DNA of 36,785 bases, from contig CALVCO010000013.1 in assembly GCA_944326095.1 (NCBI GenBank), positions 1-36,785 on the forward strand, in the 5' to 3' direction. The notes beneath the pieces are model-generated. The model was given only the letters and a program-made list of their open reading frames with translations. It was not told the DNA's origin and did no database searches. A program made the translations under genes and the position numbers. This DNA comes from an uncultured Erysipelotrichaceae bacterium (GTDB taxonomy: Bacteria > Bacillota_I > Bacilli_A > Erysipelotrichales > Erysipelotrichaceae). Shown here piece by piece: positions 4,956-16,929 of this stretch; positions within the stretch are counted from its first letter, which is position 1, and every line of letters begins with the position of its first letter.

Positions 4956-6701
4956 ATGATTAATATTAAAGAAAATGAACAACTACATGTTTTAAATCAT
5001 AGTTGTGCACATTTATTAGCACAAGCTGTAAAACATTTATATCCAAATGCAAAATTTTGGGTAGGACCTGTAATTAATGAAGGTTTTTATTATGATATTG
5101 ATTTAGATGGTGAAGTTATTAAAGAAGAAGATTTACCAAAAATCGAAAAAGAGATGAAAAAGATTGCTAAAGATGGTAAACGTATTGTTAGACATGAAAT
5201 TTCTAAAGATGAAGCTTTAGAAATGTTTAAAGATGATCCATATAAAATTGATTTAATTAATAATATGGATGAAGCTGATACAGTAATTTCTTGTTATACA
5301 CAAGGTGATTTTACTGATTTATGTAGAGGTCCTCATGTTGAGTCAGTAAAATTACTTAAAAATTTTAAATTATTAAAAGTTAGTGGAGCTTATTGGAAGG
5401 GCGATGCTAACAATAAGATGCTTCAAAGAATTTATGGTATTTGTTTTAATACTCCTGAAGAATTAGAAGAACATTTATATCTTTTAGAAGAAGCTAAAAA
5501 ACGTGATCATAAGAAGTTAGGTAAAGAATTAGAATTATTTATGATGAGTGAATATGGACCTGGTTTCCCATTCTTTTTACCTAATGGAATGATTATTAGA
5601 AATGAATTAGAGAATTTCTGGTATCAAGAACATGCTAAAGAAGGATATCAATTTATTAAAACTCCAATAATGATGAGTAAAGAATTATGGGAATTAAGTG
5701 GACATTGGGCTAATTATAGTGAGAATATGTACACTAGTGAAATTGATGATCGTACATTCTGTATTAAACCTATGAATTGTCCTGGTGGTATGTTGGTATA
5801 TAAAAATGGTCTACATTCATATAAAGATTTACCTTTAAGAATTGGTGAATTAGGACAAGTTCATCGTCATGAAGCTAGTGGAGCTTTAAATGGTTTGTTT
5901 AGAGTTAGAACTTTTACTCAAGATGATGCTCATATCTTTATGCGTGAAGATCAAATTGAAGAAGAAGTAATTCGTTTGATTAAATTTATTGATAGAATTT
6001 ATGCTGTATTTGGATTGAAATATACAATTGAATTATCTACACGTCCTGAAAAGAAATATATTGGTGATATTGCAATATGGGATAAGAGTGAAAAAGCATT
6101 GGAACATGCATGTCATGCTGCTGGCAAAGATTGCAAAATTAATCCTGGAGATGGAGCATTCTATGGTCCTAAACTTGATTTCCATTTAATTGATTCTTTA
6201 GGTCGTGAATGGCAATGTGGCACTATTCAATTAGATATGAATCTACCTGAAAGATTTGATTTAACTTATGTTGATAGTGATGGTACAAAGAAAAGACCAA
6301 TCATGTTACATCGCGTTATATATGGATCAATTGAACGTTTTATCGGTATTTTGATTGAACACTTTGCTGGAGCTTTCCCATTGTGGTTAGCACCTAAGCA
6401 AGTAGTAATTATTCCTGTACATCATGAAAATCATTTAGCATATGCAAATAAAGTAAAAGAAGCTTTAGAAGCATATAATATTAGAGTAAGTGTTGATGAT
6501 CGTAATGAAAAATTAGGATATCGTATTAGAGAAGCTCAAATTCATAAGATTCCTGTTGAAGTAGTTGTAGGTGATAGCGATCAAAATGAAGGTATAGTTA
6601 CAGTTCGTCGTTATGGTAAAAAGGAAGAAATTAAAATGCCTTTAAATGATTTTGTAGAAAGCATTGTTGAAGAAATTAAAGAAAAGAGGTTAGCTGACTA
6701 A
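4956..6701 (+). CDS. thrS: Threonyl-tRNA synthetase lacking the TGS domain
   Basis: ThrRS charges tRNA-Thr. The protein has 581 residues against about 640 for most bacterial enzymes. It begins directly in the editing domain (HSCAH at 15-19, the HxxxH motif, and CRGPH near 123) and lacks the roughly 60-residue N-terminal TGS domain. The catalytic core is complete: motif 2 (QVHRHEASGALNGLFRVR), zinc ligands Cys275 in MNCPGG, His326 in DDAHIF and the His in LHRVIYGSIERF. It ends with an anticodon-binding domain. The usual His in the NCPGH motif is Gly here. The start is fixed by AAAGGGA 8 nt upstream, and no in-frame coding sequence lies between the T-box terminator and the ATG, so the short N-terminus is genuine. 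Controlled by the T-box. Confidence 0.96.
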   Translation: MINIKENEQLHVLNHSCAHLLAQAVKHLYPNAKFWVGPVINEGFYYDIDLDGEVIKEEDLPKIEKEMKKIAKDGKRIVRHEISKDEALEMFKDDPYKIDLINNMDEADTVISCYTQGDFTDLCRGPHVESVKLLKNFKLLKVSGAYWKGDANNKMLQRIYGICFNTPEELEEHLYLLEEAKKRDHKKLGKELELFMMSEYGPGFPFFLPNGMIIRNELENFWYQEHAKEGYQFIKTPIMMSKELWELSGHWANYSENMYTSEIDDRTFCIKPMNCPGGMLVYKNGLHSYKDLPLRIGELGQVHRHEASGALNGLFRVRTFTQDDAHIFMREDQIEEEVIRLIKFIDRIYAVFGLKYTIELSTRPEKKYIGDIAIWDKSEKALEHACHAAGKDCKINPGDGAFYGPKLDFHLIDSLGREWQCGTIQLDMNLPERFDLTYVDSDGTKKRPIMLHRVIYGSIERFIGILIEHFAGAFPLWLAPKQVVIIPVHHENHLAYANKVKEALEAYNIRVSVDDRNEKLGYRIREAQIHKIPVEVVVGDSDQNEGIVTVRRYGKKEEIKMPLNDFVESIVEEIKEKRLAD

Positions 6702-7648
6702 TGAAAAAATTATTAATTATATTATTGAGTTTAACTATTTTATGTGGTTGTTCACAAAATAATACGGAAACAATTGAAGCAACAGTTACTCCTAGTGCTA
6801 CAACAGAAAGTTTTGAACCTTTAAATGTTTTAGCACCAAAAGGTGCAACTGCTTTACCTTTAGCTAATATTATTAATGAAGGTGTTCATAATGTAGTAAC
6901 TGTTGATGGTAGTGAAGTTTTACAAGCTTCATTAGTTAATCCATCACCTGAATATGATATTATCATTGCTCCTACTAATTTAGGTGTTAAATTAGCGGCA
7001 AATGGTAAGACTTCTTATAAATTAATTGATGTACTAACATGGGGTAATTTGTATTTAGTAGGTAGTGAAAATGGAATGGAAACAGCACAAGAAATTGCTT
7101 TATTTGGAGAAAATGCTGTTGTTGGTTTAGTTTTTGAAGATTTATTTAGTGATTTAGCTATGAATAAAACATATTATCCAAGTGTTGCAGAAGCTCAAGC
7201 AGCCTTATTAAGTAATAATGCTGATATTGCATTATTAGCAGAACCTGCTGCTACAGCTACAATAGCTAAAGCTAAAGAAAATGGTGTCGAATTACAAATA
7301 TTAAATGATTTGCAACAATTATGGGAAGACAAATATGGTGGTAAATATCCACAAGCTGGAATCTTTGTTTTAGAAGAAAGCTATAATGAAAATCCAGAAA
7401 GAATAAATAGTTTTATTAATGAAGTAAAAACTTTTGTTGATGAAGCAAATCAAGATAATAGTATTGTTGTAGATGTTGTAGATAGTGTTGGAGCTGATAT
7501 TTTAGGAGTTCCTAATGGTAATATTGCTAGTACAACATGGAATCGTTTAAATTTAAATGTAGTAAACGCAAATGATGTTAAAGATGAATTAACTAATTTC
7601 TTAAATTTGTTTGGTATTAGTGATATAGAACAAACTTTGATTAAATAA
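6701..7648 (+). CDS. ABC transporter substrate-binding lipoprotein (NitT/TauT or NMT1-like)
   Basis: The 315-residue product has a lipoprotein signal peptide (hydrophobic stretch, then LCGC with Cys16 as lipidation site) and a Thr/Ser/Glu-rich linker. The periplasmic-binding-protein fold resembles NitT/TauT/ThiY-type proteins: LNVLAPKGATALPLA at the mature start, a DIIIAPTN segment, then repeated Ala-rich helices and KYPQAGIFVLEE. It should sit outside the membrane and deliver an organic solute to a permease such as the one at 7728. The ATG overlaps the thrS stop by one base (TAATG), so translation is coupled and expression probably follows the threonine T-box. The ligand is unknown. No ATPase gene is present in the window. 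Family call by pattern, not by search. Confidence 0.8.
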   Translation: MKKLLIILLSLTILCGCSQNNTETIEATVTPSATTESFEPLNVLAPKGATALPLANIINEGVHNVVTVDGSEVLQASLVNPSPEYDIIIAPTNLGVKLAANGKTSYKLIDVLTWGNLYLVGSENGMETAQEIALFGENAVVGLVFEDLFSDLAMNKTYYPSVAEAQAALLSNNADIALLAEPAATATIAKAKENGVELQILNDLQQLWEDKYGGKYPQAGIFVLEESYNENPERINSFINEVKTFVDEANQDNSIVVDVVDSVGADILGVPNGNIASTTWNRLNLNVVNANDVKDELTNFLNLFGISDIEQTLIK

Positions 7649-7653
7649 CTTTT

Positions 7654-7684
7654 AGACCTAGTTTAAAAAAACTAGGTTTTTTTA
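7654..7684 (+). terminator. Intrinsic terminator after the lipoprotein gene
   Basis: ACCTAGTTT (7656-7664) pairs with AAACTAGGT (7669-7677) with a T-run, separating the thrS-lipoprotein unit from the permease. Confidence 0.85.
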
Positions 7685-7698
7685 AGCTTTTATAGAAA

Positions 7699-7721
7699 TG
7701 AAAGCGGTTATATAGTATAAT
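7699..7721 (+). promoter_or_regulatory. Promoter with near-consensus cre box before the permease and hydrogenase operon
   Basis: TGAAAGCGGTTATA (7699-7712) matches the cre consensus at 13 of 14 positions (the final C is T). It is followed immediately by TATAAT (7716-7721). No good -35 is visible at 17 nt. A cre box at this place would block RNA polymerase, so repression by CcpA is inferred. TATAAT ends 6 nt before the ATG at 7728, so the transcript would have almost no leader. Confidence 0.5.
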
Positions 7722-7727
7722 TTACAT

Positions 7728-8471
7728 ATGAAAAAACATGTAAAAAAAGAATACATTATAACAACAATGTTAATTATAGCTTTTTGGTATATATTGGCTA
7801 ACCTTGTAAATAATGATGTATTAATTCCTTATCCTTTTATTACTTTAAAAAAAGTTTTATTAATATTGTTTGATTTATCATTCTATGATTCGTTGATTGC
7901 TACATTATTACATGTTTTATCTGCTTGTTTTTATAGTTTAATTATTGCTTTAGTATTAGGTATTAGTGGATATGAATTTAAAACTATTCGTTACTTTTTT
8001 GAACCATTAAATATGATAATTAAAACAATACCTAATATTAGTTATATTATTATTATTCTTATATGGTTTGGTTCTACTAAAAGCGTTAGTATTATTTGTT
8101 TTTTGATATTATTTCCAATGATTTACTCAAATATATTATATTCATTAGATAATATAAATAAACAATATCATGATGTAGAATTGATATATCATGAGAATTT
8201 TCTTGATAGCTTGCGTTATCATTTAATTCCTTATTTATTACCATTGATTTTAAATAATTTAAAAACATCTTTTTCCTTAGGTTTTAAAGTTGGAGTTATG
8301 GCAGAGATTTTAGGACAAGCTCCTAAAGGTATAGGAAGATTATTACAGATTGCTAAATTAAATTTAAATATGACTGATATATTTGCATATACGATTATCA
8401 TTATTATGATTTGCTTATTAATTGACATTATATTTAATAATTTAATTCATTTTTATGAGAAGAGGAGGTAA
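7728..8471 (+). CDS. ABC transporter permease (NitT/TauT/SsuC type)
   Basis: A 247-residue membrane protein with about six hydrophobic helices and the binding-protein-dependent permease layout. It has an N-terminal helix, a PNISYIIIILIWFG segment, and the cytoplasmic EAA-type loop (VELIYHENFLDSLRYHLIPYLLPLI) that would dock an ATPase. The end of the family pattern, GVMAEILGQAPKGIGRLL, is clear. It probably pairs with the binding lipoprotein at 6701, although a terminator and a new promoter lie between them. The ATPase must be encoded elsewhere or shared. No ribosome site precedes the ATG, which lies 6 nt after TATAAT, so leaderless translation is possible. Its last codons contain the AGAGGAGG ribosome site of hydC, so it is probably co-transcribed with the hydrogenase genes. 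Confidence 0.88.
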   Translation: MKKHVKKEYIITTMLIIAFWYILANLVNNDVLIPYPFITLKKVLLILFDLSFYDSLIATLLHVLSACFYSLIIALVLGISGYEFKTIRYFFEPLNMIIKTIPNISYIIIILIWFGSTKSVSIICFLILFPMIYSNILYSLDNINKQYHDVELIYHENFLDSLRYHLIPYLLPLILNNLKTSFSLGFKVGVMAEILGQAPKGIGRLLQIAKLNLNMTDIFAYTIIIIMICLLIDIIFNNLIHFYEKRR

Positions 8472-8477
8472 GTAAAA

Positions 8478-8969
8478 ATGGAAAAATTAAATATCGAGTC
8501 GCGGCGTAAGATTGATGAAATTGTCTTGAAACACAAAGGCAAAATGGGTCCTGTTAAGCTTATGTTGCATGATGTTCAAAGTGAGTTAGGCTATATTCCG
8601 TTTGAAGCTATGGAAAAAATTGCTGAAGCTTGTAATGTCAGTGTAGCTGAAGTGTATGGGGTTGTTACTTTTTATACGCAATTTACGACTGAACCAAAAG
8701 GAAAATGTGTTATTAATGTATGCATGGGTACCGCATGCTATGTTAAAGGCGCACAAGAATTAATTAATCATATTATGGACCTTACGCATGCACCAATTAA
8801 TGGTACAAGTGATGATGGTTTATTTTCGTTGGATGCTACAAGGTGTCTTGGAGCTTGTGGCTTAGCTCCTGTAGTTATTATTGATGACAAGGTATATGGA
8901 AATGCTAATGAATCTAATGTCGTAGAGGATATCATAACTAAAATTATTCAGGCAGAAAGAAGACATTAA
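8478..8969 (+). CDS. hydC: [FeFe]-hydrogenase subunit HydC (NuoE-like [2Fe-2S] protein)
   Basis: This 163-residue thioredoxin-fold protein matches the 24-kDa NuoE/HndA family. It carries one [2Fe-2S] cluster on Cys82, Cys87 (CMGTAC), Cys123 and Cys127 (CLGAC). In trimeric electron-bifurcating hydrogenases it sits beside the HydB flavoprotein and passes electrons in the NADH branch. The N-terminal helical region (GPVKLMLHDVQSELGYIP, AEVYGVVTFY) is typical. It starts 7 nt after the permease stop, with its AGAGGAGG site inside the permease gene. hydB and hydA follow only after seven accessory genes, an arrangement that separates the small subunit from its partners. HndA is an equivalent name. 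Confidence 0.93.
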   Translation: MEKLNIESRRKIDEIVLKHKGKMGPVKLMLHDVQSELGYIPFEAMEKIAEACNVSVAEVYGVVTFYTQFTTEPKGKCVINVCMGTACYVKGAQELINHIMDLTHAPINGTSDDGLFSLDATRCLGACGLAPVVIIDDKVYGNANESNVVEDIITKIIQAERRH

Positions 8970-8971
8970 AA

Positions 8972-9337
8972 ATGCTTGCTAAAGATATCATTAACTTTCT
9001 AGATGCAAAACCTATTTTCATAGGTTCACCACAATTATTAGATAAAGAATATAATAATTGTTTTGCTTCTGATTTAATGAGCGATGCTTTAGCTATGATA
9101 TCAAATGAAGATAATTCAACAGTATTATTAACTGGTTGTTGTAATGTACAATCTCTAAGGACTGCAGAAATGTTAGATTTAGATCTAATTATTTATGTAA
9201 GAGGTAAAATATTGGACAGTGATACTTTAGAAATGGCTAAAGATTTAAGATGCAATGTTTATACGACGCAATTTACATTATTTGATGCTTGTGGAATTTT
9301 ATATTCCCAAGGCTTAAAAGGTATAAATGCTAAATAA
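8972..9337 (+). CDS. DRTGG-domain protein (first of two in the hydrogenase operon)
   Basis: A small cytoplasmic protein of 121 residues that fits the DRTGG-domain fold: an N-terminal strand-helix segment, a central alternation (STVLLTGCCNVQSLRTAEMLDLDLIIYVRG), and a closing NVYTTQFTLFDACGIL, the place where DRTGG proteins have VTPYDTF-like sequence. DRTGG domains elsewhere occur between CBS domains in pyrophosphatases and in phosphotransacetylase fusions and are suspected of ligand binding; no function is established for the stand-alone form. It starts 2 nt after hydC and its end overlaps the next gene by 11 nt. The pairing with a GHKL ATPase and an H-cluster protein suggests a sensory role. 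The cysteines in TGCCN are not part of a known cluster motif. Confidence 0.75.
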   Translation: MLAKDIINFLDAKPIFIGSPQLLDKEYNNCFASDLMSDALAMISNEDNSTVLLTGCCNVQSLRTAEMLDLDLIIYVRGKILDSDTLEMAKDLRCNVYTTQFTLFDACGILYSQGLKGINAK

Positions 9338-9740
9338 AGATTTTGAAGTGGTCAATCAAGATTATCAAAATATGGGTAAAGTTAGTAGTCAAATCAAAAA
9401 AATGCTTTTAGAAATAGGCTTTGATCCTAAAATTTTAAGAAGAATAGCAGTTGCTAGTTATGAAGCAGAAATTAATATGGTTATACATGCTTATGGAGGA
9501 AATATTCATATGGATGTAGATGATGATGGCTTAATTACTTTGATATTTCATGATTTAGGACCAGGAATTCCTGACTTAACAAAAGCTATGACTCCTGGAT
9601 GGTCTACAGCGAATGAAAAAGCTAGGAATTTAGGTTTTGGAGCTGGTATGGGCTTAGTAAATATTAAAAGAGTATCTGATACATTTGATATTAAAACTAG
9701 TCCAGAAGGAACAATTTTGACCATTTCTTTTAAGGGTTAA
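9327..9740 (+). CDS. GHKL ATPase, anti-sigma-factor (RsbW/SpoIIAB) type
   Basis: A 137-residue stand-alone ATP-binding domain. The N-box (EAEINMVIHA), G1 box (DLGPGIPD) and G2 box (GFGAGMGLVNI) of GHKL ATPases are all present, so it should bind ATP. Its size and the TKAMTPGWSTANEKARN segment place it with RsbW-like serine kinases. Classical members phosphorylate an anti-anti-sigma protein and bind a sigma factor, but neither is encoded nearby. In this operon type, possible targets are the DRTGG proteins or the H-cluster sensor; that is inference. The start at 9327 overlaps the previous gene by 11 nt with only AAAGG before it, suggesting coupling. A later ATG at 9372 would remove conserved N-terminal sequence. 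Confidence 0.85.
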   Translation: MLNKDFEVVNQDYQNMGKVSSQIKKMLLEIGFDPKILRRIAVASYEAEINMVIHAYGGNIHMDVDDDGLITLIFHDLGPGIPDLTKAMTPGWSTANEKARNLGFGAGMGLVNIKRVSDTFDIKTSPEGTILTISFKG

Positions 9741-9744
9741 TAAT

Positions 9745-10899
9745 ATGAGTGTTATTACTTATACTTTAAGTAAATGTTCAAAATGTATGCGTTGTGTTCA
9801 AGCTTGTCCAACTAAAGCAATTCGTATGCAAAATAATCGTATTGTTATTGATAAGAAAAATTGTATAAATTGCTTTAAATGTATTAATGCTTGTCATCAT
9901 AAAGGAATGACTGCTCAAGGTAGTACTTTAGATGATATTAATAGTTATAATTATACTGTTTGTCTTGTTCCTAGTGCTTTATCTTGTCATTTAGAATCGA
10001 AACAAAAAGTTAATGCATTATTTAATGCTTTAAAAAAATTAGGCTTTGATGAAATAATAGATTTAAGTCCTGTTGAAGCAGCTGTTTTTGAAAAAGCTAA
10101 AAATTATTCTAATAAAGAAATGTATATTAGTTCATTTTGTCCATTGGTAAATAATTTAATCAAAGTTAAATTTCCGGTACTTCAAGAAAAAGTTTTACCA
10201 ATAAATTATCCAAGTGAAATTATGGCAAAAATTATAAGGGATAAATATAAAAATGAACAAATAGGAATTTTTAATTTATGTGAATGTGCAGCTAAATTAG
10301 CATTAGCTAAATATCCATATCAAAATCTTAAATATGAAGTCGATCATGCGCTAAGTATTGTAGATATTTTTCCAAAGATTAAATCTATGATGGTTGATAG
10401 TAATGAAGAAGTTAAGTTAAGCCAAAAAGGTTTATCGGTTACATCACCATTTACAATTGAAAAAAATCCAAATATTTTAGTGACAGATGGTTTTGATAGT
10501 ATTTTAAATATCTTAGAATTGGCGGAATTTGGATTATTGGAAGAGTATAATCTTATTAGATTATATCCTTGTTATGGTGGATGTATTGGCGGACATTTAA
10601 TGTGGGGTAATGCTTATACAGCTATTAAAAATATTGATAAAATTGCTTCAACTCAAGATATAATGCAAATTGATGAACATTATTTTATTAAAGATAATGA
10701 TGAAGATATAGATGTAGATCAAAGATCTATTAAAGAAAAAATTAAATATTTTAATGCGGTAAATTTACAGTTAGAAAATTTACCTGGTTATGATTGTACG
10801 GCTTGCGGTTTACCAACATGTCGTATTATGGCTGAAGAAATTGTAAATGGTCATAAAACTTTAAATGATTGTCAAATACTTAAAACAAAGGAAAAATAA
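9745..10899 (+). CDS. HsfB-like H-cluster-domain iron-sulfur protein, putative H2/redox sensor
   Basis: This 384-residue protein has two N-terminal [4Fe-4S] motifs (Cys11/14/17/21 and Cys40/43/46/50). A reduced [FeFe]-hydrogenase large-subunit domain follows. Its three loops are altered but keep cysteines: SSFCP (Cys132) in place of TSCCP, NLCECAAK (Cys179, Cys181) in place of MPCTAKK, and CYGGCIGG (Cys276, Cys280) in place of CPGGCIGGGG. A C-terminal FeS domain has Cys351/354/359/376 (DCTACGLPTC). The proton-relay Cys position is Phe, as expected of a non-catalytic or sensory H-cluster protein of the HsfB/HydS kind. Relatives usually carry a C-terminal PAS domain; this one stops right after the FeS domain. 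It lies between a GHKL ATPase and a DRTGG protein, which supports a sensing role. Confidence 0.85.
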   Translation: MSVITYTLSKCSKCMRCVQACPTKAIRMQNNRIVIDKKNCINCFKCINACHHKGMTAQGSTLDDINSYNYTVCLVPSALSCHLESKQKVNALFNALKKLGFDEIIDLSPVEAAVFEKAKNYSNKEMYISSFCPLVNNLIKVKFPVLQEKVLPINYPSEIMAKIIRDKYKNEQIGIFNLCECAAKLALAKYPYQNLKYEVDHALSIVDIFPKIKSMMVDSNEEVKLSQKGLSVTSPFTIEKNPNILVTDGFDSILNILELAEFGLLEEYNLIRLYPCYGGCIGGHLMWGNAYTAIKNIDKIASTQDIMQIDEHYFIKDNDEDIDVDQRSIKEKIKYFNAVNLQLENLPGYDCTACGLPTCRIMAEEIVNGHKTLNDCQILKTKEK

Positions 10900-10900
10900 A

Positions 10901-11230
10901 ATGAAAATTAAAGATTTAAAGAATATATCCCAATTTAACTTTAAAAATATTGCAAATGAAGATATAGAAATTAGCGGAGTATTCATTGGTGACTTATTGA
11001 GTTGGGTTATGGCAAATGGAAAAGAAAAACAAATTTGGATAACAGTTCAAGCACACTTAAATGTCATTGCAGTAAGCTTGTTAAAAGAGTTTAGCTGTAT
11101 CATATTATGTGATAATACATCATGTGATGAGGAATTTATTAATAAATGTAAAGAGGAACAGGTTAATCTTATTTTAACTTCATGTAGTGCATATGAATGT
11201 GCTAAAGAATTAATTAATTTAGATCTATGA
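10901..11230 (+). CDS. DRTGG-domain protein (second of two)
   Basis: A 109-residue protein with the same fold pattern as the one at 8972. It has an ISGVFIGDLLSWVMANG start, an IWITVQAHLNVIAVSLL segment, then IILCDNTSCDEEFINKCKEE and a closing LILTSCSAYECAKELI. The frame is open to an earlier ATG at 10865, but the ATG at 10901 is preceded by AAAGGAAA and follows the upstream stop by one base, so it is preferred. It overlaps the next gene by four bases (ATGA). Two DRTGG proteins in one operon, each near a GHKL ATPase or the H-cluster protein, could form a heterodimer or bind different signals. No experimental function is known to me. Confidence 0.75.
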   Translation: MKIKDLKNISQFNFKNIANEDIEISGVFIGDLLSWVMANGKEKQIWITVQAHLNVIAVSLLKEFSCIILCDNTSCDEEFINKCKEEQVNLILTSCSAYECAKELINLDL

Positions 11231-11895
11231 TTTATTATGATTTTCATATACACACATGTTTATCACCATGTGCAGATGATGATATGACACCAAATAATAT
11301 TATTAATATGGCAATGATAAAAGGCTTAGACATGATTGCTATATGTGATCATAATTCTTCTTTACAATTGAGTGCATTTAGTAAATTAAAAACAAATATT
11401 AAAATAATATTTGGAATTGAAGTAGAAACGATAGAAGAAGTCCATGTTTTAGGATTATTTAAATCACTTGAAGATAATATATCATTTGATAAGTGGTTAG
11501 ATAATTATAAGCTTAAAACTATTAATGATATACATTTTTTTGGTAATCAATTAATAATGGATGAAAATGATAATGTTATAAAGCAACATCCATATTTATT
11601 AATTACAAGTACAAAAGTTAACTTAAATGATTGTATAAAAATGATACACCAATATCATGGTATTGCAGTTTTAGCTCATGTATTTGATCGTAAAAATAGT
11701 ATTATAAATCAATTAGGTTTTATACCTAATGATATTCAAGCAGATGCAATTGAAGTAAAAAATGAAGAACAAATTAAATTAATTAAACAAATGTATCCTT
11801 TTTTACAAAATAAAATATTCATGATTAATTCAGATGCTCATCGCTTGATAGATATAAATGAAAGAATTAATGCTTTACAAGAAGATATATTTTAA
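11227..11895 (+). CDS. PHP-domain metal-dependent phosphoesterase-like protein
   Basis: A 222-residue protein of the PHP superfamily. Metal-ligand motifs are clear: HIHTCLSPC near residue 7, ICDHNS near 40, and INSDAH near the C-terminus, with GIEVETIEEVHVLGLF between. PHP domains hydrolyse phosphate esters or, in DNA polymerase III, proofread. In this hydrogenase operon the natural substrate is unknown; a phosphatase opposing the two GHKL ATPases is one inference, nucleotide or phosphate-ester turnover another. It overlaps the DRTGG gene by ATGA, which forces coupled translation, and is followed 18 nt later by the second ATPase gene with an AGGAG ribosome site. Confidence 0.88.
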   Translation: MIYYDFHIHTCLSPCADDDMTPNNIINMAMIKGLDMIAICDHNSSLQLSAFSKLKTNIKIIFGIEVETIEEVHVLGLFKSLEDNISFDKWLDNYKLKTINDIHFFGNQLIMDENDNVIKQHPYLLITSTKVNLNDCIKMIHQYHGIAVLAHVFDRKNSIINQLGFIPNDIQADAIEVKNEEQIKLIKQMYPFLQNKIFMINSDAHRLIDINERINALQEDIF

Positions 11896-11913
11896 AAAGT
11901 TATAGGAGTAATT

Positions 11914-12456
11914 ATGGAAGATTTAGCTATGTATATCATTGAAATACTAATGAATAGTATTCATGCTTCTAGCCATAATATCATATGTAATATTGAAATT
12001 GATACTCATGAAGATCTTTTAACTATAATTGTTGAAGATGATGGAAAAGGTATGGAGGAACAATTTTTAAATAATATTACTAATCCGTTTGTTACTACAA
12101 GAAAAACAAGAAAAATTGGATTAGGTGTATCTTTTTTGCAAAGTTTATGTGATCAATGCAATGGAAAATTAGTCATTAAAAGTAGACCAAATATCGGTAC
12201 AATAACTATTGCAACTTTACCATATTCTCATTGGGATATTCCACCTTTAGGAAATATTGGAGAAATGATGATGTTATGTATACAAGCTAATCCTGATATA
12301 GAATTTATGTTATATTTTAAAAAAGATAATATTAATTTTCTATTTGATACTAAAGAAATAAAAAAAATACTTGATGGAGTTAAAATCAATGAACCTGATA
12401 TATTATTATGGCTTAAAGACTATATTAATCAAGGAATAAAAGGAGAGAATCAATGA
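11914..12456 (+). CDS. GHKL ATPase of histidine-kinase type
   Basis: A 180-residue protein made mostly of one HATPase_c domain: N-box (EILMNSIHASSHN), G1 (DDGKGM), a TNPFVTTRKTRKIGLGVSF lid and G2 region, and a GTITIATLP closing strand. It has no dimerisation domain, no phospho-acceptor His region and no sensor domain, so it is not a normal two-component kinase. The extra C-terminal 75 residues (from HWDIPPLGN) are typical of this hydrogenase-linked family but have no known function. It overlaps the ferredoxin gene by ATGA. It differs in type from the RsbW-like ATPase at 9327, so the operon carries two distinct GHKL proteins. Confidence 0.88.
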   Translation: MEDLAMYIIEILMNSIHASSHNIICNIEIDTHEDLLTIIVEDDGKGMEEQFLNNITNPFVTTRKTRKIGLGVSFLQSLCDQCNGKLVIKSRPNIGTITIATLPYSHWDIPPLGNIGEMMMLCIQANPDIEFMLYFKKDNINFLFDTKEIKKILDGVKINEPDILLWLKDYINQGIKGENQ

Positions 12457-12821
12457 AAAGTTTAGAAGATTTAAAAAAGATGCGTGAAAAAGCATTAAAA
12501 AAGGTAGAAATGCGTGATGTAGATAAAAAATATCGCGTAGTGGTAGGTATGGCTACTTGTGGTATTGCGGCAGGAGCAAGACCGGTATTAAATGCTCTTA
12601 TTGAAGAAATAAGTAGAAATGAATATCCTTGTGTAGTTACACAAACTGGATGTATCGGATTATGTGCATATGAACCAATTGTTGAAGTATTTAATCAAGA
12701 AGATCATACTAAAACGACTTATGTTCATGTTACTCCAGAAAAAGCAATTTCTATTTTACAAAATCATATATTAAAAGATCGCATCATAACTGAATTAACG
12801 ATTGATAATTATCAAAAGTAG
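12453..12821 (+). CDS. Thioredoxin-like [2Fe-2S] ferredoxin
   Basis: A 122-residue protein with a charged N-terminal helix followed by a thioredoxin-like [2Fe-2S] fold. Cluster ligands are visible as the Cys in MATCGIAAGARP and the pair in QTGCIGLCAYEP; the fourth ligand is not obvious from the usual spacing. The domain resembles the N-terminal domain of the next gene product (HydB), so it may be an extra electron carrier or docking subunit of the hydrogenase. Such genes regularly stand directly before hydB in clostridial hydrogenase operons. It overlaps the ATPase gene by four bases and is followed 9 nt later by hydB. Confidence 0.88.
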   Translation: MKSLEDLKKMREKALKKVEMRDVDKKYRVVVGMATCGIAAGARPVLNALIEEISRNEYPCVVTQTGCIGLCAYEPIVEVFNQEDHTKTTYVHVTPEKAISILQNHILKDRIITELTIDNYQK

Positions 12822-12830
12822 GAGAAATTT

Positions 12831-14627
12831 ATGGAAAGAATAAATGTATTGATTTGTGCAGGTACAGGCTGTACTAGTAGTAATTCTGGTTTGCTTGTAC
12901 AAAAATTTAATGAATTATTACCTCAATATGGCTTAGAAGATGAAGTAAAGGTAATTAAGACTGGTTGTTTTGGTTTATGTCAAAAAGGTCCTATCGTAGC
13001 TATATATCCTGATAAAGTCTTTTATAATCATGTAAAAGTAGAAGATGTTGAAGTTATTATTTCAGAACATTTATATAAAGGTAGAGTTGTTAAACGTTTA
13101 GAATTAAGTGAAATTGATGAGCTTACTAAAGAAAAAATTTTAGATATTGATAAAATTAAATTCTATGCTAAACAAAAAAGAATTGCTTTAAGAAATTGTG
13201 GAGTAATTAATCCTGAAGATATCTTAGAGTATATTGCTAAAGATGGTTATATGGCCTTAGGTAAAGCTATTACTGAAATGACTCCTCAAGAAGTAATTGA
13301 TGAAATAAAAGCATCGGGTTTACGTGGAAGAGGAGGCGGAGGTTTCCCTACTGGAGTTAAGTGGCAATTTGCAGCTAATCAACCTAAAGGGCAAAAATAT
13401 GTAATATGTAATGCAGATGAGGGAGATCCTGGAGCATTTATGGATCGTTCAATCCTAGAAGGAGATCCACATAGTGTTATAGAAGCTATGGCTATTGCAG
13501 GTTATGCAATTGGGGCAAATCATGGATATATTTATATTCGTGCTGAATATCCTATTGCTGTTCAACGTTTAAAAATTGCGATTAAACAAGCTGAAGAATA
13601 TGGTTTATTAGGTTCAAATATTTTAGGTACGGATTTTGATTTTTCATTGGAAATTCGTCTGGGGGCTGGAGCCTTTGTATGTGGTGAAGAAACAGCATTA
13701 ATTATGTCTATTGAAGGTAAAAGAGGTATGCCAGTTCCTAAACCACCTTTCCCTGCTGTAAGTGGTGTATGGGGTAAACCTACAATCATTAATAATGTTG
13801 AAACATTTGCTAATGTTGCACAAATTATTCTAAAAGGATCTAGTTGGTTTGCTAGTATTGGTACAGAAAAGTCTAAAGGTACCAAAGTATTTGCTTTAGG
13901 AGGTAAAATTTCTAATACGGGTTTGGTAGAAATTCCTATGGGTACTACTTTAAGAGAAATTATCTATGAAATTGGTGGAGGATGCCCAAATAATAAAAAC
14001 TTTAAAGCGGTTCAAACAGGAGGACCAAGTGGTGGATGTTTAACTGAGGATCAATTAGACACACCAATTGATTTTGATAACTTAGTTGAATTGGGAAGTA
14101 TGATGGGTTCAGGTGGTATGATTGTCTTAGATGAAGATAATTGTATGGTCGATGTAGCACGTTTCTATTTAGATTTTATCGTAGAAGAAAGCTGTGGAAA
14201 ATGTACACCTTGCCGTGTAGGTACTAAACGCTTACTAGAAATGTTAATTAAAATTACTAAAGGTGAAGGTGGCTTAGAAATATTGGATGAAATGGAAAAG
14301 CTTTGTTATGAAATTAAACAAACAGCATTATGTGGTTTAGGCCAAACTGCTCCAAATCCAATTATTTCTACTTTGAAACAATTCAGAAGTGAATATGAAG
14401 CTCATGTTGTTGATAAACGTTGTCCAGCAGGAGTATGTAAGGCATTATTAACTTATCAAGTTAAAACTGATCTATGCCGTAAATGTTCATTATGTGCTAA
14501 AAATTGTCCAGTTGGGGCAATTAGCGGTGTCCCTGGTAAGGAACCATATCATATCGATACTAGCAAATGTATAAAATGTGGTGCTTGTTATAGTGCATGT
14601 CGATTCCATGCAATCGAAAGGAGATAA
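12831..14627 (+). CDS. hydB: [FeFe]-hydrogenase subunit HydB (NuoF-like flavoprotein)
   Basis: HydB oxidises or reduces NAD(P) and, in bifurcating enzymes, splits electrons between ferredoxin and NADH. The 598 residues contain an N-terminal thioredoxin-like [2Fe-2S] domain (Cys9, Cys14, Cys46, Cys50) and the NuoF core with FMN/NADH motifs (LRGRGGGGFPTG near 165; GAGAFVCGEETAL). The [4Fe-4S] site follows (SCGKCTPCRVG plus CGLGQTAPNP), and then two C-terminal [4Fe-4S] motifs (CRKCSLCAKNCPVG and CIKCGACYSACRF). This full domain set is that of trimeric HydABC or HndABCD enzymes. The start follows AGGAGAAATTT. The stop at 14625 precedes hydA by 2 nt, and the hydA ribosome site AAAGGAG lies in the last codons. 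Confidence 0.96.
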   Translation: MERINVLICAGTGCTSSNSGLLVQKFNELLPQYGLEDEVKVIKTGCFGLCQKGPIVAIYPDKVFYNHVKVEDVEVIISEHLYKGRVVKRLELSEIDELTKEKILDIDKIKFYAKQKRIALRNCGVINPEDILEYIAKDGYMALGKAITEMTPQEVIDEIKASGLRGRGGGGFPTGVKWQFAANQPKGQKYVICNADEGDPGAFMDRSILEGDPHSVIEAMAIAGYAIGANHGYIYIRAEYPIAVQRLKIAIKQAEEYGLLGSNILGTDFDFSLEIRLGAGAFVCGEETALIMSIEGKRGMPVPKPPFPAVSGVWGKPTIINNVETFANVAQIILKGSSWFASIGTEKSKGTKVFALGGKISNTGLVEIPMGTTLREIIYEIGGGCPNNKNFKAVQTGGPSGGCLTEDQLDTPIDFDNLVELGSMMGSGGMIVLDEDNCMVDVARFYLDFIVEESCGKCTPCRVGTKRLLEMLIKITKGEGGLEILDEMEKLCYEIKQTALCGLGQTAPNPIISTLKQFRSEYEAHVVDKRCPAGVCKALLTYQVKTDLCRKCSLCAKNCPVGAISGVPGKEPYHIDTSKCIKCGACYSACRFHAIERR

Positions 14628-14629
14628 AC

Positions 14630-16378
14630 ATGAGCGTAAATATTAAAATTAATAATATAAATGTTCGTTGTGATGAAAATGATACTATCTTAACTGCTGC
14701 TAAAAAAGCTGGCATAAATATTCCAACTTTATGTTATTTAAAAGATGTTAATAAAAGTGGAAATTGTCGTGTTTGTTTAGTAGAAGTTAAAAATGCTAAA
14801 AATTTAGCTGCAGCTTGTGTTTATCCGGTTTCTGAAGGTTTAGAAGTATATACTCATAGTAATAGAGCTATAGAAGCACGAAAAAATAGTGTAGAGCTAA
14901 TCTTATCTAACCATTCTAAAAATTGTTTAAGCTGTGTTAGAAATCAAAATTGTGAATTACAACGCTTAACTGAAGAACTTGGTATTAGAGAAGATAAATT
15001 TAATGGTGAGCATACTCCAGTTAGTTTTGATGATTTTAGTTATGGTATTGTTAGAGATTCTAGTAAATGTATTTTATGTGGAAGATGTGTTGAAACATGT
15101 AAAAAGGTACAAGGTTTAGGTATTCTTGGCTTCCAAAACCGGGGCTTTAATACTAAAGTAGCTCCAGTTATGGATAAAAGTTTTGCAGATGTTAATTGTA
15201 TGCAATGTGGACAATGTGTTATAGCATGTCCAGTAGGTGCCTTAAGTGAAAAAGAAGATATTCATCGTGTTGTACAAGCTTTAAATGATAATACTAAACA
15301 TGTTATTGTACAAACAGCTCCAGCAGTAAGAGCGTCTTTAGGTGAAGAATTTAATATGCCAATAGGTACTAGGGTAACTGGTAAAATGGTAGCTGGCTTA
15401 AGACGTATAGGCTTTAATAGAGTATATGATACTAATTTTGGTGCAGATTTAACTATAATGGAAGAGGGTACAGAATTTATCGAAAGATTACAAAATAATG
15501 GAGTTTTACCAATGATAACTTCTTGTAGTCCAGGATGGATTAGATATGCTGAATATGAATATCCTGAAATTTTAGATAATCTAAGTAGTTGTAAATCTCC
15601 ACATATGATGTTAGGAGCAATGTTAAAATCTTATTATGCTAAAGTTAAAGGTATTGATCCTAAAGATATTTTTGTAGTTTCTATTATGCCATGCACTGCC
15701 AAAAAATCAGAAATTCAACGTAATGAATGTATAACTAATGAATATCCTGATGTAGATGCTGTACTTACTACTAGAGAATGCGGAAGATTATTAAAGATGT
15801 ATGGTATTGATTTAAATAATTTACCAGATGAAGAATTTGATGATGATATGTTTGGTGAGTATTCTGGAGCAGCGGTTATTTTTGGAGCAACAGGTGGAGT
15901 TATGGAAGCTGCTTTAAGAACTGTCAAAGAAATTTTAGAACATAAAGAATTAGCTAAAATTGATTTTGAAGAGGTAAGAGGTTTACAAGGAGTTAAACAT
16001 GCTACAATTAAAATTAATGATATAGATGTTAAAGTAGCAGTAGCTTCTGGTATGACTAATGCTAAACCATTATTAGAAGATGTTAAGAATCATTGCAGTC
16101 CATATCATTTTATTGAAATTATGGGTTGCCCTGGTGGATGTATCAATGGTGGTGGTCAATCTATTGTTTCTAGTAGAGTTAAAAATAATGATGTAGATTA
16201 TAAAGCCCTAAGAGCTAAAGCTTTATATGATGAGGATAAACTTTGTGAGGTTAGAAAGTCGCATGAAAATACCCAAATTCAAGCTTTATATGAAAACTAT
16301 CTAGAAAAACCAGGATCACATTTAGCTCATAAATTACTACATACTACATATTCCCAAAAGATAAAGTTTAAAATATAA
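14630..16378 (+). CDS. hydA: [FeFe]-hydrogenase catalytic subunit HydA (trimeric, group A3-like)
   Basis: HydA makes or consumes H2. The 582 residues hold an N-terminal [2Fe-2S] (Cys35/46/49/63), the His-ligated [4Fe-4S] (His95, Cys99, Cys102, Cys108) and two [4Fe-4S] motifs (Cys147-157 and Cys190-200). The H-cluster domain has L1 TSCSPGW (297-303), L2 MPCTAKK (Cys355) and L3 MGCPGGCINGGGQ (Cys500, Cys504). L1 has Ser300 where monomeric enzymes have the second Cys of TSCCP. I chose ATG 14630 because it follows AAAGGAGATAAAC; an upstream in-frame ATG (14597) lies inside hydB without such a site. The stop overlaps the TetR gene by one base. Maturation genes hydE, hydF and hydG are not in the window. 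Confidence 0.97.
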   Translation: MSVNIKINNINVRCDENDTILTAAKKAGINIPTLCYLKDVNKSGNCRVCLVEVKNAKNLAAACVYPVSEGLEVYTHSNRAIEARKNSVELILSNHSKNCLSCVRNQNCELQRLTEELGIREDKFNGEHTPVSFDDFSYGIVRDSSKCILCGRCVETCKKVQGLGILGFQNRGFNTKVAPVMDKSFADVNCMQCGQCVIACPVGALSEKEDIHRVVQALNDNTKHVIVQTAPAVRASLGEEFNMPIGTRVTGKMVAGLRRIGFNRVYDTNFGADLTIMEEGTEFIERLQNNGVLPMITSCSPGWIRYAEYEYPEILDNLSSCKSPHMMLGAMLKSYYAKVKGIDPKDIFVVSIMPCTAKKSEIQRNECITNEYPDVDAVLTTRECGRLLKMYGIDLNNLPDEEFDDDMFGEYSGAAVIFGATGGVMEAALRTVKEILEHKELAKIDFEEVRGLQGVKHATIKINDIDVKVAVASGMTNAKPLLEDVKNHCSPYHFIEIMGCPGGCINGGGQSIVSSRVKNNDVDYKALRAKALYDEDKLCEVRKSHENTQIQALYENYLEKPGSHLAHKLLHTTYSQKIKFKI

Positions 16379-16929
16379 TGAATGACAATAATGATAAAAC
16401 AAAATATTGGTTAGCTAATTCATTTATTGAATTAATGAATACCCATCATATTAATAAAATTACTGTAAAAGATATTGTAGATAATTGTGGTATGACTAGG
16501 CAAACATTTTATCGTTATTTTAAAGATAAATTTGATCTAGTAAATTGGTATTTTGAAAAAATAGCCGATAATTCTTTCAAAAAAATGGGAAATGGTTTAA
16601 CTCTTGAAGAAGGATTAATAAAAAAATTTCAATATATTCGCAAAGAACAAAACTTCTTTCGTCAAGCATTTTTAATTGAAGACTGTAATTCCTTAATAAA
16701 TTATGATTTTAAATGCATTTATAGCTTTTATTTAAGTGTTATATTAAAAAAATTAAAAGTAGATAATATTGATGAAGATTTAGATTTTGCTTTACGTTTA
16801 TATTGTTATGGCTGTATTTATATGACCATAGATTGGCTAAAAAATGGTTTATATCCTAATGAAGAGGCAATTGCAAGAAATCTTATTAATGCAATGCCTA
16901 ATCAATTAGCAAATATAATCTTACATTAA
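16378..16929 (+). CDS. TetR-family transcriptional regulator (DhaS-like)
   Basis: A 183-residue regulator with an N-terminal helix-turn-helix (ITVKDIVDNCGMTRQTFYRYFKDKFDLV, about residues 24-53) and an all-helical C-terminal ligand domain of the kind found in DhaS-like TetR proteins. Its ATG overlaps the hydA TAA by one base, so it is the last gene of the hydrogenase operon and translationally coupled to it. Targets are unknown. The nearest candidate operator is the perfect 14-bp palindrome over the fucO promoter 60 bp downstream; autoregulation of the hydrogenase operon from 7700 is an alternative, but that promoter lacks the same palindrome. A strong terminator follows. Ligand cannot be deduced. 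Confidence 0.9.
   Translation: MNDNNDKTKYWLANSFIELMNTHHINKITVKDIVDNCGMTRQTFYRYFKDKFDLVNWYFEKIADNSFKKMGNGLTLEEGLIKKFQYIRKEQNFFRQAFLIEDCNSLINYDFKCIYSFYLSVILKKLKVDNIDEDLDFALRLYCYGCIYMTIDWLKNGLYPNEEAIARNLINAMPNQLANIILH

Follow-up and report, generated by a model that had tools for sequence, protein, structure and literature searches.

The window analyzed here is a 36,785-nucleotide (nt) stretch from an uncultured Erysipelotrichaceae bacterium (assembly GCA_944326095.1, contig CALVCO010000013.1, positions 1 to 36,785 of the forward strand). According to its open reading frame (ORF) list, ten genes lie head to tail on the forward strand between 8478 and 16378, with hydC first and hydA last, in the order hydC, DRTGGa, RsbW-like, HsfB-like, DRTGGb, PHP, HATPase, HydD-like, hydB and hydA (Table 1). 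They encode a trimeric-type hydrogenase and a set of accessory proteins, hereafter the module, which we propose may control that enzyme. An earlier note on this DNA had placed seven closely spaced genes between hydC and hydB/hydA, and the ORF coordinates agree in both order and spacing, every gap being below 20 nt or replaced by an overlap: the RsbW-like ORF overlaps DRTGGa by 11 nt, the PHP gene overlaps DRTGGb and the HydD-like gene overlaps the HATPase gene by 4 nt each, and PHP and HATPase are 18 nt apart. For DRTGGb, the ORF is listed from 10865, and the ATG at 10901 agrees with the lengths of its relatives. HydA scores 880.9 bits against the model of the NADH-dependent trimeric type NF040763 (cut-off 765), and its nearest solved chain is HydA1 of Acetobacterium woodii (A. 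woodii; 7q4v, 718.6 bits).

Table 1. Features of the hydrogenase locus in the window
Feature	Position	Strand	Assignment and basis
hydC	8478-8969	+	NuoE-like thioredoxin-fold [2Fe-2S] subunit of trimeric hydrogenase; Pfam 2Fe-2S_thioredx E 3.9e-44
DRTGGa	8972-9337	+	stand-alone DRTGG-fold protein (by predicted fold), accompanies RsbW-like gene
RsbW/SpoIIAB-like	9327-9740	+	GHKL ATPase, putative kinase; HATPase_c_2 E 3.8e-12
HsfB-like	9745-10899	+	H-cluster protein with group D (M2e) features; Fe_hyd_lg_C E 1.4e-17, FeS E 5.5e-12
DRTGGb	10901-11230	+	second DRTGG protein, stays with HATPase in reduced loci; DRTGG 21.6 bits
PHP	11227-11895	+	PHP-family phosphoesterase; Pfam PHP E 1.3e-8
HATPase	11914-12456	+	GHKL ATPase, no His phospho-acceptor domain; HATPase_c E 2.6e-14
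HydD-like	12453-12821	+	subunit of thioredoxin-like [2Fe-2S] fold; 2Fe-2S_thioredx 21.7 bits (below cut-off, 24.8)
hydB	12831-14627	+	NuoF-like flavin subunit; Complex1_51K E 7e-49
hydA	14597 or 14633 (likely start) to 16378	+	catalytic subunit of trimeric NADH-linked hydrogenase; NCBIfam NF040763
TetR	16378-16929	+	TetR-family regulator, overlaps hydA stop; TetR_C_8 E 3.2e-15

Gene order and co-occurrence with HydA

Constancy of gene order was assessed in 80 named loci, the best 80 of 341 confirmed; as all were chosen for the presence of HsfB, they speak to how constant the order is and not to how common the set is, and some come from the same genomes as other sets used here. All ten genes stand in order in 54 of the 80, the run is cut by the end of the available DNA in 24, and in two the match to a single gene is split in two (HsfB in L126, PHP in L133). 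As far as the DNA extends, all 80 agree with the order in the window. The same order is common to the relatives' loci of families f1, f2 and f12, and in family f19 hydC adjoins HydD.

Co-occurrence was counted in a sample of 392 genomes, of which those listed all belong to the window's class; the three counts were taken as one draw, with thresholds of E <= 1e-100 for HydA, at least 238 bits for the sensor-type H-cluster gene and E <= 1e-37 for DRTGGa. Trimeric-type HydA is present in 144 genomes (116 exceed the curated cut-off), most of which lack the module. The sensor-type gene is found in 19 genomes and DRTGGa in 34, and all 19 and all 34 fall within the 144 that carry HydA. For independent genomes, a condition that kinship breaks here, overlaps this complete would arise with chances of 2e-9 and 1e-16, respectively; neither these values nor the genome counts take account of kinship. 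Thus, the accessory genes are tied to trimeric-type HydA. A random distribution with respect to hydA is ruled out by these counts, and the view of the earlier note that the set is devoted to the hydrogenase is upheld.

The association is also one of position. When the tables were compared by hand, 31 of the 34 DRTGGa matches proved to have a listed HydA on their own strand less than 8 kb away; among the remaining three, L303 and L304 adjoin HydA, and L311 reaches the contig end after HydD. A 35th genome (G280) gave a weak match to the DRTGGa model (1e-16), with internal stops in the matched stretch. In family f9 (L303–L307), a module devoid of the sensor stands beside one HydA, and other HydA loci in the same genomes have no module.

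Nested gene content of the hydrogenase loci

To survey gene content, we read the genes upstream of hydB in 97 HydA loci, mostly one per genus and hand-chosen from the HydA table (98 were fetched; L291, without HydA, was dropped). None of the genes in question was present in 60 loci, HydD only in 8, HydD and HATPase in 1, HydD, HATPase and DRTGG in 3, all but the sensor in 7 and the full set in 17, while one locus (L170) was cut by a contig end and is on that ground rejected as a non-nested exception. The loci scored as having none include L210 and L287, both cut by a contig end, L215, in which a short ORF was read by eye as a decayed HydD, and 7 to which the automated reading joined no HydB. 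Among the 97 loci, no combination outside a nested series was seen, presence following the order HydD > HATPase > DRTGGb > RsbW, DRTGGa and PHP > sensor. In the lone locus with HydD and HATPase (L213, 6223-11064), the second Gly of the HATPase DxGxG motif and all three HydD cysteines are lost.

Separate models of the two DRTGG types refine this order. Each of 33 full or sensor-less loci has exactly one a-type and one b-type protein, and the lone DRTGG protein of the three loci with DRTGG and HATPase (L222, L223 and L272) is b-type in every case; an a-type assignment in L272, suggested by a mixed model, was abandoned on this basis. The H-cluster protein, by comparison, is rejected as the core of the module and not supported as an indispensable sensor, as the other genes persist without it: all genes but this one are present in 7 of the 97 surveyed loci and in 8 loci added later (L303–L310), which were fetched because they contain DRTGGa.

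On a HydB+HydA tree of 91 rows, which adds the window and these 8 loci and leaves out loci that are cut by a contig end (L210 and L287 among them) or too short, gene content changes state 17 times, as it does on an 85-row tree. Counted for single states on the 91-row tree, there are 7 changes for the full set, 5 for the set minus the sensor, 6 for HydD only, 3 for DRTGG with HATPase, 1 for HATPase and 7 for none. The nested order has therefore held over repeated gains or losses. In 46 of the 91 tree loci, HydA and HydB are present without HydD or any module gene. Moreover, of 27 single contiguous deletions that would leave something of the set, 3 yield a partial state that is observed, and position in the operon alone thus explains little of the nesting; since this null was conceived with the data in view and takes no account of phylogeny, it illustrates the point rather than testing it. 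The nested reduced loci suggest two GHKL-DRTGG pairs that would act on the enzyme through HydD.

Encoded proteins and competing explanations

The HsfB-like protein (384 residues) aligns with the L1–L3 regions of HydA with a probability of 98.8 (hhalign). The cysteines of its two N-terminal [4Fe-4S] sites (C11, C14, C17, C21, C40, C43, C46 and C50) and of the H-cluster (C132, C181, C276 and C280) are invariant in 15 of 15 sequences; in the HydA alignment, C181, C276 and C280 face cysteines, and C132 faces Ser299 (Cys300 in CpI). No family match to a PAS domain was found in the window protein. Of 104 rows, some of them copies from the same genomes, 103 have a C-terminal Cx2Cx4Cx16C motif; the exception, in L256, has none of the motifs and is probably another protein. 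The proton-shuttle cysteine (C299 of CpI) is lost, with F131 at this position in the window; 98 rows read [ST]xCP, 81 of them SFCP and none with Cys at x, and 6 rows are off this pattern. The position of CpI M353 is occupied by Cys179 in the window (CEC), CxC is found in 84 rows, and among the other rows read Ser (L165–L169) or Ala (L171) occurs; this variation next to the H-cluster site may mark active-site subtypes. As to HydA itself, the L1 motif in the window is TSCSP, as in A. woodii HydA1, and that of CpI is TSCCP.

Judged by these residues, the HsfB-like protein has the features of group D (M2e), whose members are putative sensory [FeFe] hydrogenases. This group includes TamHydS, whose host we take to be Thermoanaerobacter mathranii. 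The features of the group, according to PMC8163306, are the lack of a PAS domain, a C-terminal Cx2Cx4Cx16C motif, loss of the proton-shuttle cysteine and a gene linked to a group A hydrogenase of the trimeric type; replacement of M353 by Ser or Thr is described in print as well conserved, not as part of the definition. Group D genes were classed as sensory because they lie near kinases and bifurcating hydrogenases (PMC3561251). The earlier note had called the whole system uncharacterized, which holds for the signaling route but not for the sensor type, since TamHydS has been purified and studied (PMC8163306, PMC13104023). It takes up an H-cluster, and H2 alters its secondary structure without reducing the C-terminal cluster; its partners are not known, and the authors consider finding them critical to clarifying the signaling mechanism (PMC13104023).

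Of the two proteins that the earlier note had labelled DRTGG, DRTGGa has no match to the Pfam family and DRTGGb remains under its cut-off (21.6 versus 25.2 bits), but the predicted structure of DRTGGa bears the label out. Its AlphaFold model (predicted local distance difference test [pLDDT] 94) is closest among solved folds to the DRTGG protein AF1212 (2ioj; Z 16.3, root-mean-square deviation [rmsd] 2.0, 116 residues aligned), followed by a pyrophosphatase DRTGG domain (3l2b; Z 13.1, rmsd 2.4, 108 aligned) and, more weakly, by pseudomurein ligase (Z 10.4) and HPr kinase (Z about 8). By this model, the fold of DRTGGa is that of DRTGG. Fifteen residues are invariant in 20 of 20 DRTGGa sequences, including D34, M36, S37, D38, T54, G55, T64, R77 and K79; in DRTGGb, which shares D-L-L-S, D31 and L33 are invariant and S34 is kept in 21 of 22. 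By analogy with STAS proteins, the conserved serine is a possible phospho-acceptor.

Both ATPases retain their nucleotide-binding motifs, as the earlier note had assumed. The N-box (E46/N50), D76xGPGI81 and GFGAGxG of the RsbW-like protein are invariant in 20 of 20 sequences, as are N14, D42xGxG and G69xG71 of the HATPase in 23 of 23, an alignment that does not include the decayed protein of L213. The RsbW-like protein matches the curated SpoIIAB equivalog model with 43.9 bits, short of the cut-off of 135. The HATPase (180 residues, with the HATPase match beginning at residue 4) has no DHp domain with a phospho-acceptor His, and we therefore discarded the idea of an ordinary histidine kinase.

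These properties bear on whether the output is a promoter, with the RsbW-like protein as an anti-sigma kinase or the HATPase as a two-component kinase and, in this genus, the TetR-family regulator as the output. Besides the resemblance to SpoIIAB, such a switch would fit an AraC-type regulator that flanks TamHydS (PMC8163306), the four sigma-70 region 2 matches and the one SpoIIE phosphatase, encoded at another locus, in the window's genome, and the STAS matches in 9 of the 17 relatives that carry the module. It would also fit the TetR gene, which overlaps the hydA stop by one base and lies within the range covered by the earlier note, where it went uncounted in the statement that no sigma factor, anti-anti-sigma protein or response regulator is encoded. 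Among the loci listed, however, this gene follows hydA only in the window's genus and is thus a genus-specific addition outside the conserved set, and the HATPase lacks DHp. In addition, profile searches, which a diverged STAS protein may escape, gave no STAS match in the window's genome (G000) and neither STAS nor SpoIIE matches in three further genomes with the module (G001, which is 89% complete, G010 and G012). A classical sigma-factor switch is therefore not required, a sigma-factor output is ruled out as a general rule, and we regard transcriptional control by the module as distinctly unlikely.

The predicted structure of the HATPase (pLDDT 91; residues 51–70 are less sure) brings up a further explanation. 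VIA-align places the ATPase domains of MutL, topoisomerase VI, PMS2 and GyrB on top, with many rows tied (best row: Z 13.2, rmsd 3.6, 137 aligned, residues 1–166); Foldseek disagrees, ranking histidine kinases (WalK, CckA) about as high as MutL-type proteins. As MutL, topoisomerase VI and GyrB (Z 12-13) work by conformational change and the HATPase lacks a His phospho-acceptor domain, the GHKL ATPases might instead be chaperones of HydABCD in cluster insertion, assembly or repair after oxidation, with the H-cluster protein as a HydA-related scaffold; assembly was also named by the authors of PMC3315566. Arguing against this, HydABC of Thermotoga maritima (T. maritima) produced in Escherichia coli is described as fully active in bifurcation, with no accessory proteins mentioned in the available text (PMC9499530), and Tte0891 is not among the subunits named there for the purified enzyme of Caldanaerobacter subterraneus (Ca. 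subterraneus; PMC4694547). Given this activity and the 46 tree loci with neither HydD nor module, the basic enzyme does not depend on the module, and we consider a role in assembly, repair or protection unlikely, although it remains a serious rival.

The gene labelled a [2Fe-2S] ferredoxin in the earlier note may connect the HATPase to the enzyme. It is a small gene of thioredoxin-like [2Fe-2S] fold that, as HydD, directly precedes hydB, and its product has only three of the four ligand cysteines. We have replaced the label by HydD-like, and the supposed seven accessory genes include, in this gene, one likely enzyme subunit. By reading of 24 HydD rows, C36, C67 and C71 are nearly invariant, the first ligand position is never Cys, and three of the four cluster cysteines are kept in 22 rows, the window included. 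In Ca. subterraneus, HydABC is purified together with HydD (PMC4694547), and HydD of A. woodii is a subunit with no predicted cofactor (PMC6288185), whereas A. woodii HydE, which resembles histidine-kinase ATP-binding domains, is absent from the enzyme (PMC3315566). By position and ATPase type, the HATPase is the equivalent of HydE and Tte0891. Because HydD is a subunit and its neighbor HydE lies outside the enzyme, HydD is a candidate contact point.

In the PHP protein, H7, H9, D41, H42, E65, H151, D203 and H205 are invariant in 20 of 20 sequences and H73 nearly so. We take these residues to be metal ligands, and their retention agrees with the phosphatase-like protein of the earlier note. 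The best models are those of a nuclease (RNase RNM), TrlF and a nucleoside bisphosphate (small-molecule) phosphatase, which would suit control by a small nucleotide that binds the DRTGG proteins or HydD and is degraded by PHP, the ATPases reading the adenylate charge; DRTGG also accompanies CBS domains in the regulatory region of pyrophosphatase (3l31, 3l2b). No nucleotide synthase is recognized in the gene set, however, and nucleotide binding by DRTGG has no support in this analysis, making such a signal improbable.

A proposed control module and its relation to known systems

Based on these results, we suggest that the module provides dedicated, ATP-driven post-translational control of electron-bifurcating HydABC(D) through two ATPase-DRTGG pairs, with PHP as reset, HydD as the point of action and a group D-type protein as optional input. 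At its core, HATPase and DRTGGb would form one pair beside the enzyme genes and the RsbW-like protein and DRTGGa a second one upstream, the DRTGG proteins perhaps serving the ATPases as partners or substrates, as STAS proteins serve RsbW. The PHP phosphoesterase might reset both pairs as a phosphatase. The target of this phospho-circuit would be the enzyme, reached most likely by way of HydD, and the effect would be a change in its activity or state of assembly and not in transcription, amounting to regulation rather than maturation. In the fullest version, the group D-type H-cluster protein would feed the H2 or redox state into the RsbW pair, the presumed direction of the signal; elsewhere it would be dispensable. 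We put the probability of this reading at roughly 45%, because interaction and phosphorylation are inferred and because of the strength of the chaperone-like alternative for the GHKL ATPases.

Several observations weigh against such post-translational control. The nesting may in part reflect operon position, that is contiguous deletions, and shared ancestry. As the HATPase is outside the complex in published purifications, its link to HydD consists of gene order and nesting. The fold comparison by VIA-align favors MutL/GyrB-type ATPases over kinases, the best PHP models are not known protein phosphatases, and about half of the module carriers among relatives do have a STAS match. Finally, 16 of the 34 DRTGGa genomes have no H-cluster protein, which weakens H2 sensing as a general purpose.

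A more specific version of post-translational control would make GHKL ATPase plus DRTGG a new type of partner switch, like RsbW plus STAS, with a metabolic enzyme as its direct target. The two pairs, in series, would pass the redox or H2 state to HydD and reset the hydrogenase, the group D-type protein being an optional outer sensor whose missing partner would be RsbW-DRTGGa. We offer this version as a speculation that is rather unlikely.

In many anaerobes, it is the bifurcating [FeFe] hydrogenases that set the balance between H2, NADH and ferredoxin. In many gut anaerobes, the operon of a main hydrogenase carries a conserved, ATP-using, switch-like set and an optional H2-sensor-like protein that probably regulate this enzyme. 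The survey names candidate partners for group D sensors, whose signaling route is not known, and gives a dependency order of the parts, along with natural deletion variants that can be compared; should DRTGG proteins and ATPases indeed be paired, stand-alone DRTGG proteins would also gain a role. In searches of one open-access library, we found no description of this circuit or of a worked-out control mechanism; the circuit is not described in the available parts of PMC10102598, PMC3990059, PMC5626996 and PMC10407848, and a term search of PMC8924675 found nothing.

Upstream of the operon, a lipoprotein-like protein, without a match in Pfam or NCBIfam, and an ABC permease (BPD_transp_1) are encoded at 6701-8471, ending 6 nt before hydC. 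Relatives of the lipoprotein-like protein occur up to three genes upstream of the operon in 8 of the 97 HydA loci and no more than two genes beyond hydA on its downstream side in 13, whether or not the module is present, a link between transporter and hydrogenase that has no evident reason.

The proposed circuit has counterparts in several known systems. RsbW and SpoIIAB act by partner switching with a STAS protein, a sigma factor and a PP2C phosphatase. The window likewise encodes a SpoIIAB-like ATPase with ATP motifs, one-to-one with a small protein, but this protein is DRTGG instead of STAS, and the set has neither sigma factor nor PP2C. TamHydS, compared by printed features and not by sequence, resembles the HsfB-like protein in the absence of PAS, the lost proton-shuttle cysteine, the Cx2Cx4Cx16C motif and the gene linkage both to a bifurcating hydrogenase of trimeric type and to an ATPase resembling histidine kinases, and differs from it in having Ser instead of Cys at the M353 position. 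In the HfsABCD/HydS systems, a sensory-type H-cluster protein is also linked to a hydrogenase operon; these systems have a PAS-type sensor and a serine phosphatase (PMC11837493, PMC10055695), whereas the ten genes of the window include no PAS or SpoIIE phosphatase and have in their place two GHKL ATPases, two DRTGG proteins and a PHP protein. A separate locus in the window's genome (L035, contig G000:C19, 1791-6369) resembles the hfs/hydS systems, with a hydrogenase-like protein of 486 residues, a protein of 83 residues, an H-cluster-type protein of 559 residues and a SpoIIE phosphatase.

Among bifurcating hydrogenases, the A. woodii operon hydC-hydE-hydD-hydB-hydA (PMC3315566) shares with the window a HATPase and HydD between HydC and HydB, its HATPase-HydD-HydB-HydA order being deduced from locus numbers, and the Ca. 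subterraneus operon hydC-tte0891-hydD-hydB-hydA (PMC4694547) has the same HATPase-HydD-HydB-HydA order. DRTGG, RsbW, PHP and H-cluster proteins are not mentioned for these operons in the available text of the two papers. For Ca. subterraneus, the locus numbers of TTE0887 and the nearby TTE0892-0894 leave room for some of the module genes (PMC3561251), and locus numbers in the same source hint that the module may also be present in Clostridium thermocellum, Caldicellulosiruptor and Thermoanaerobacter.

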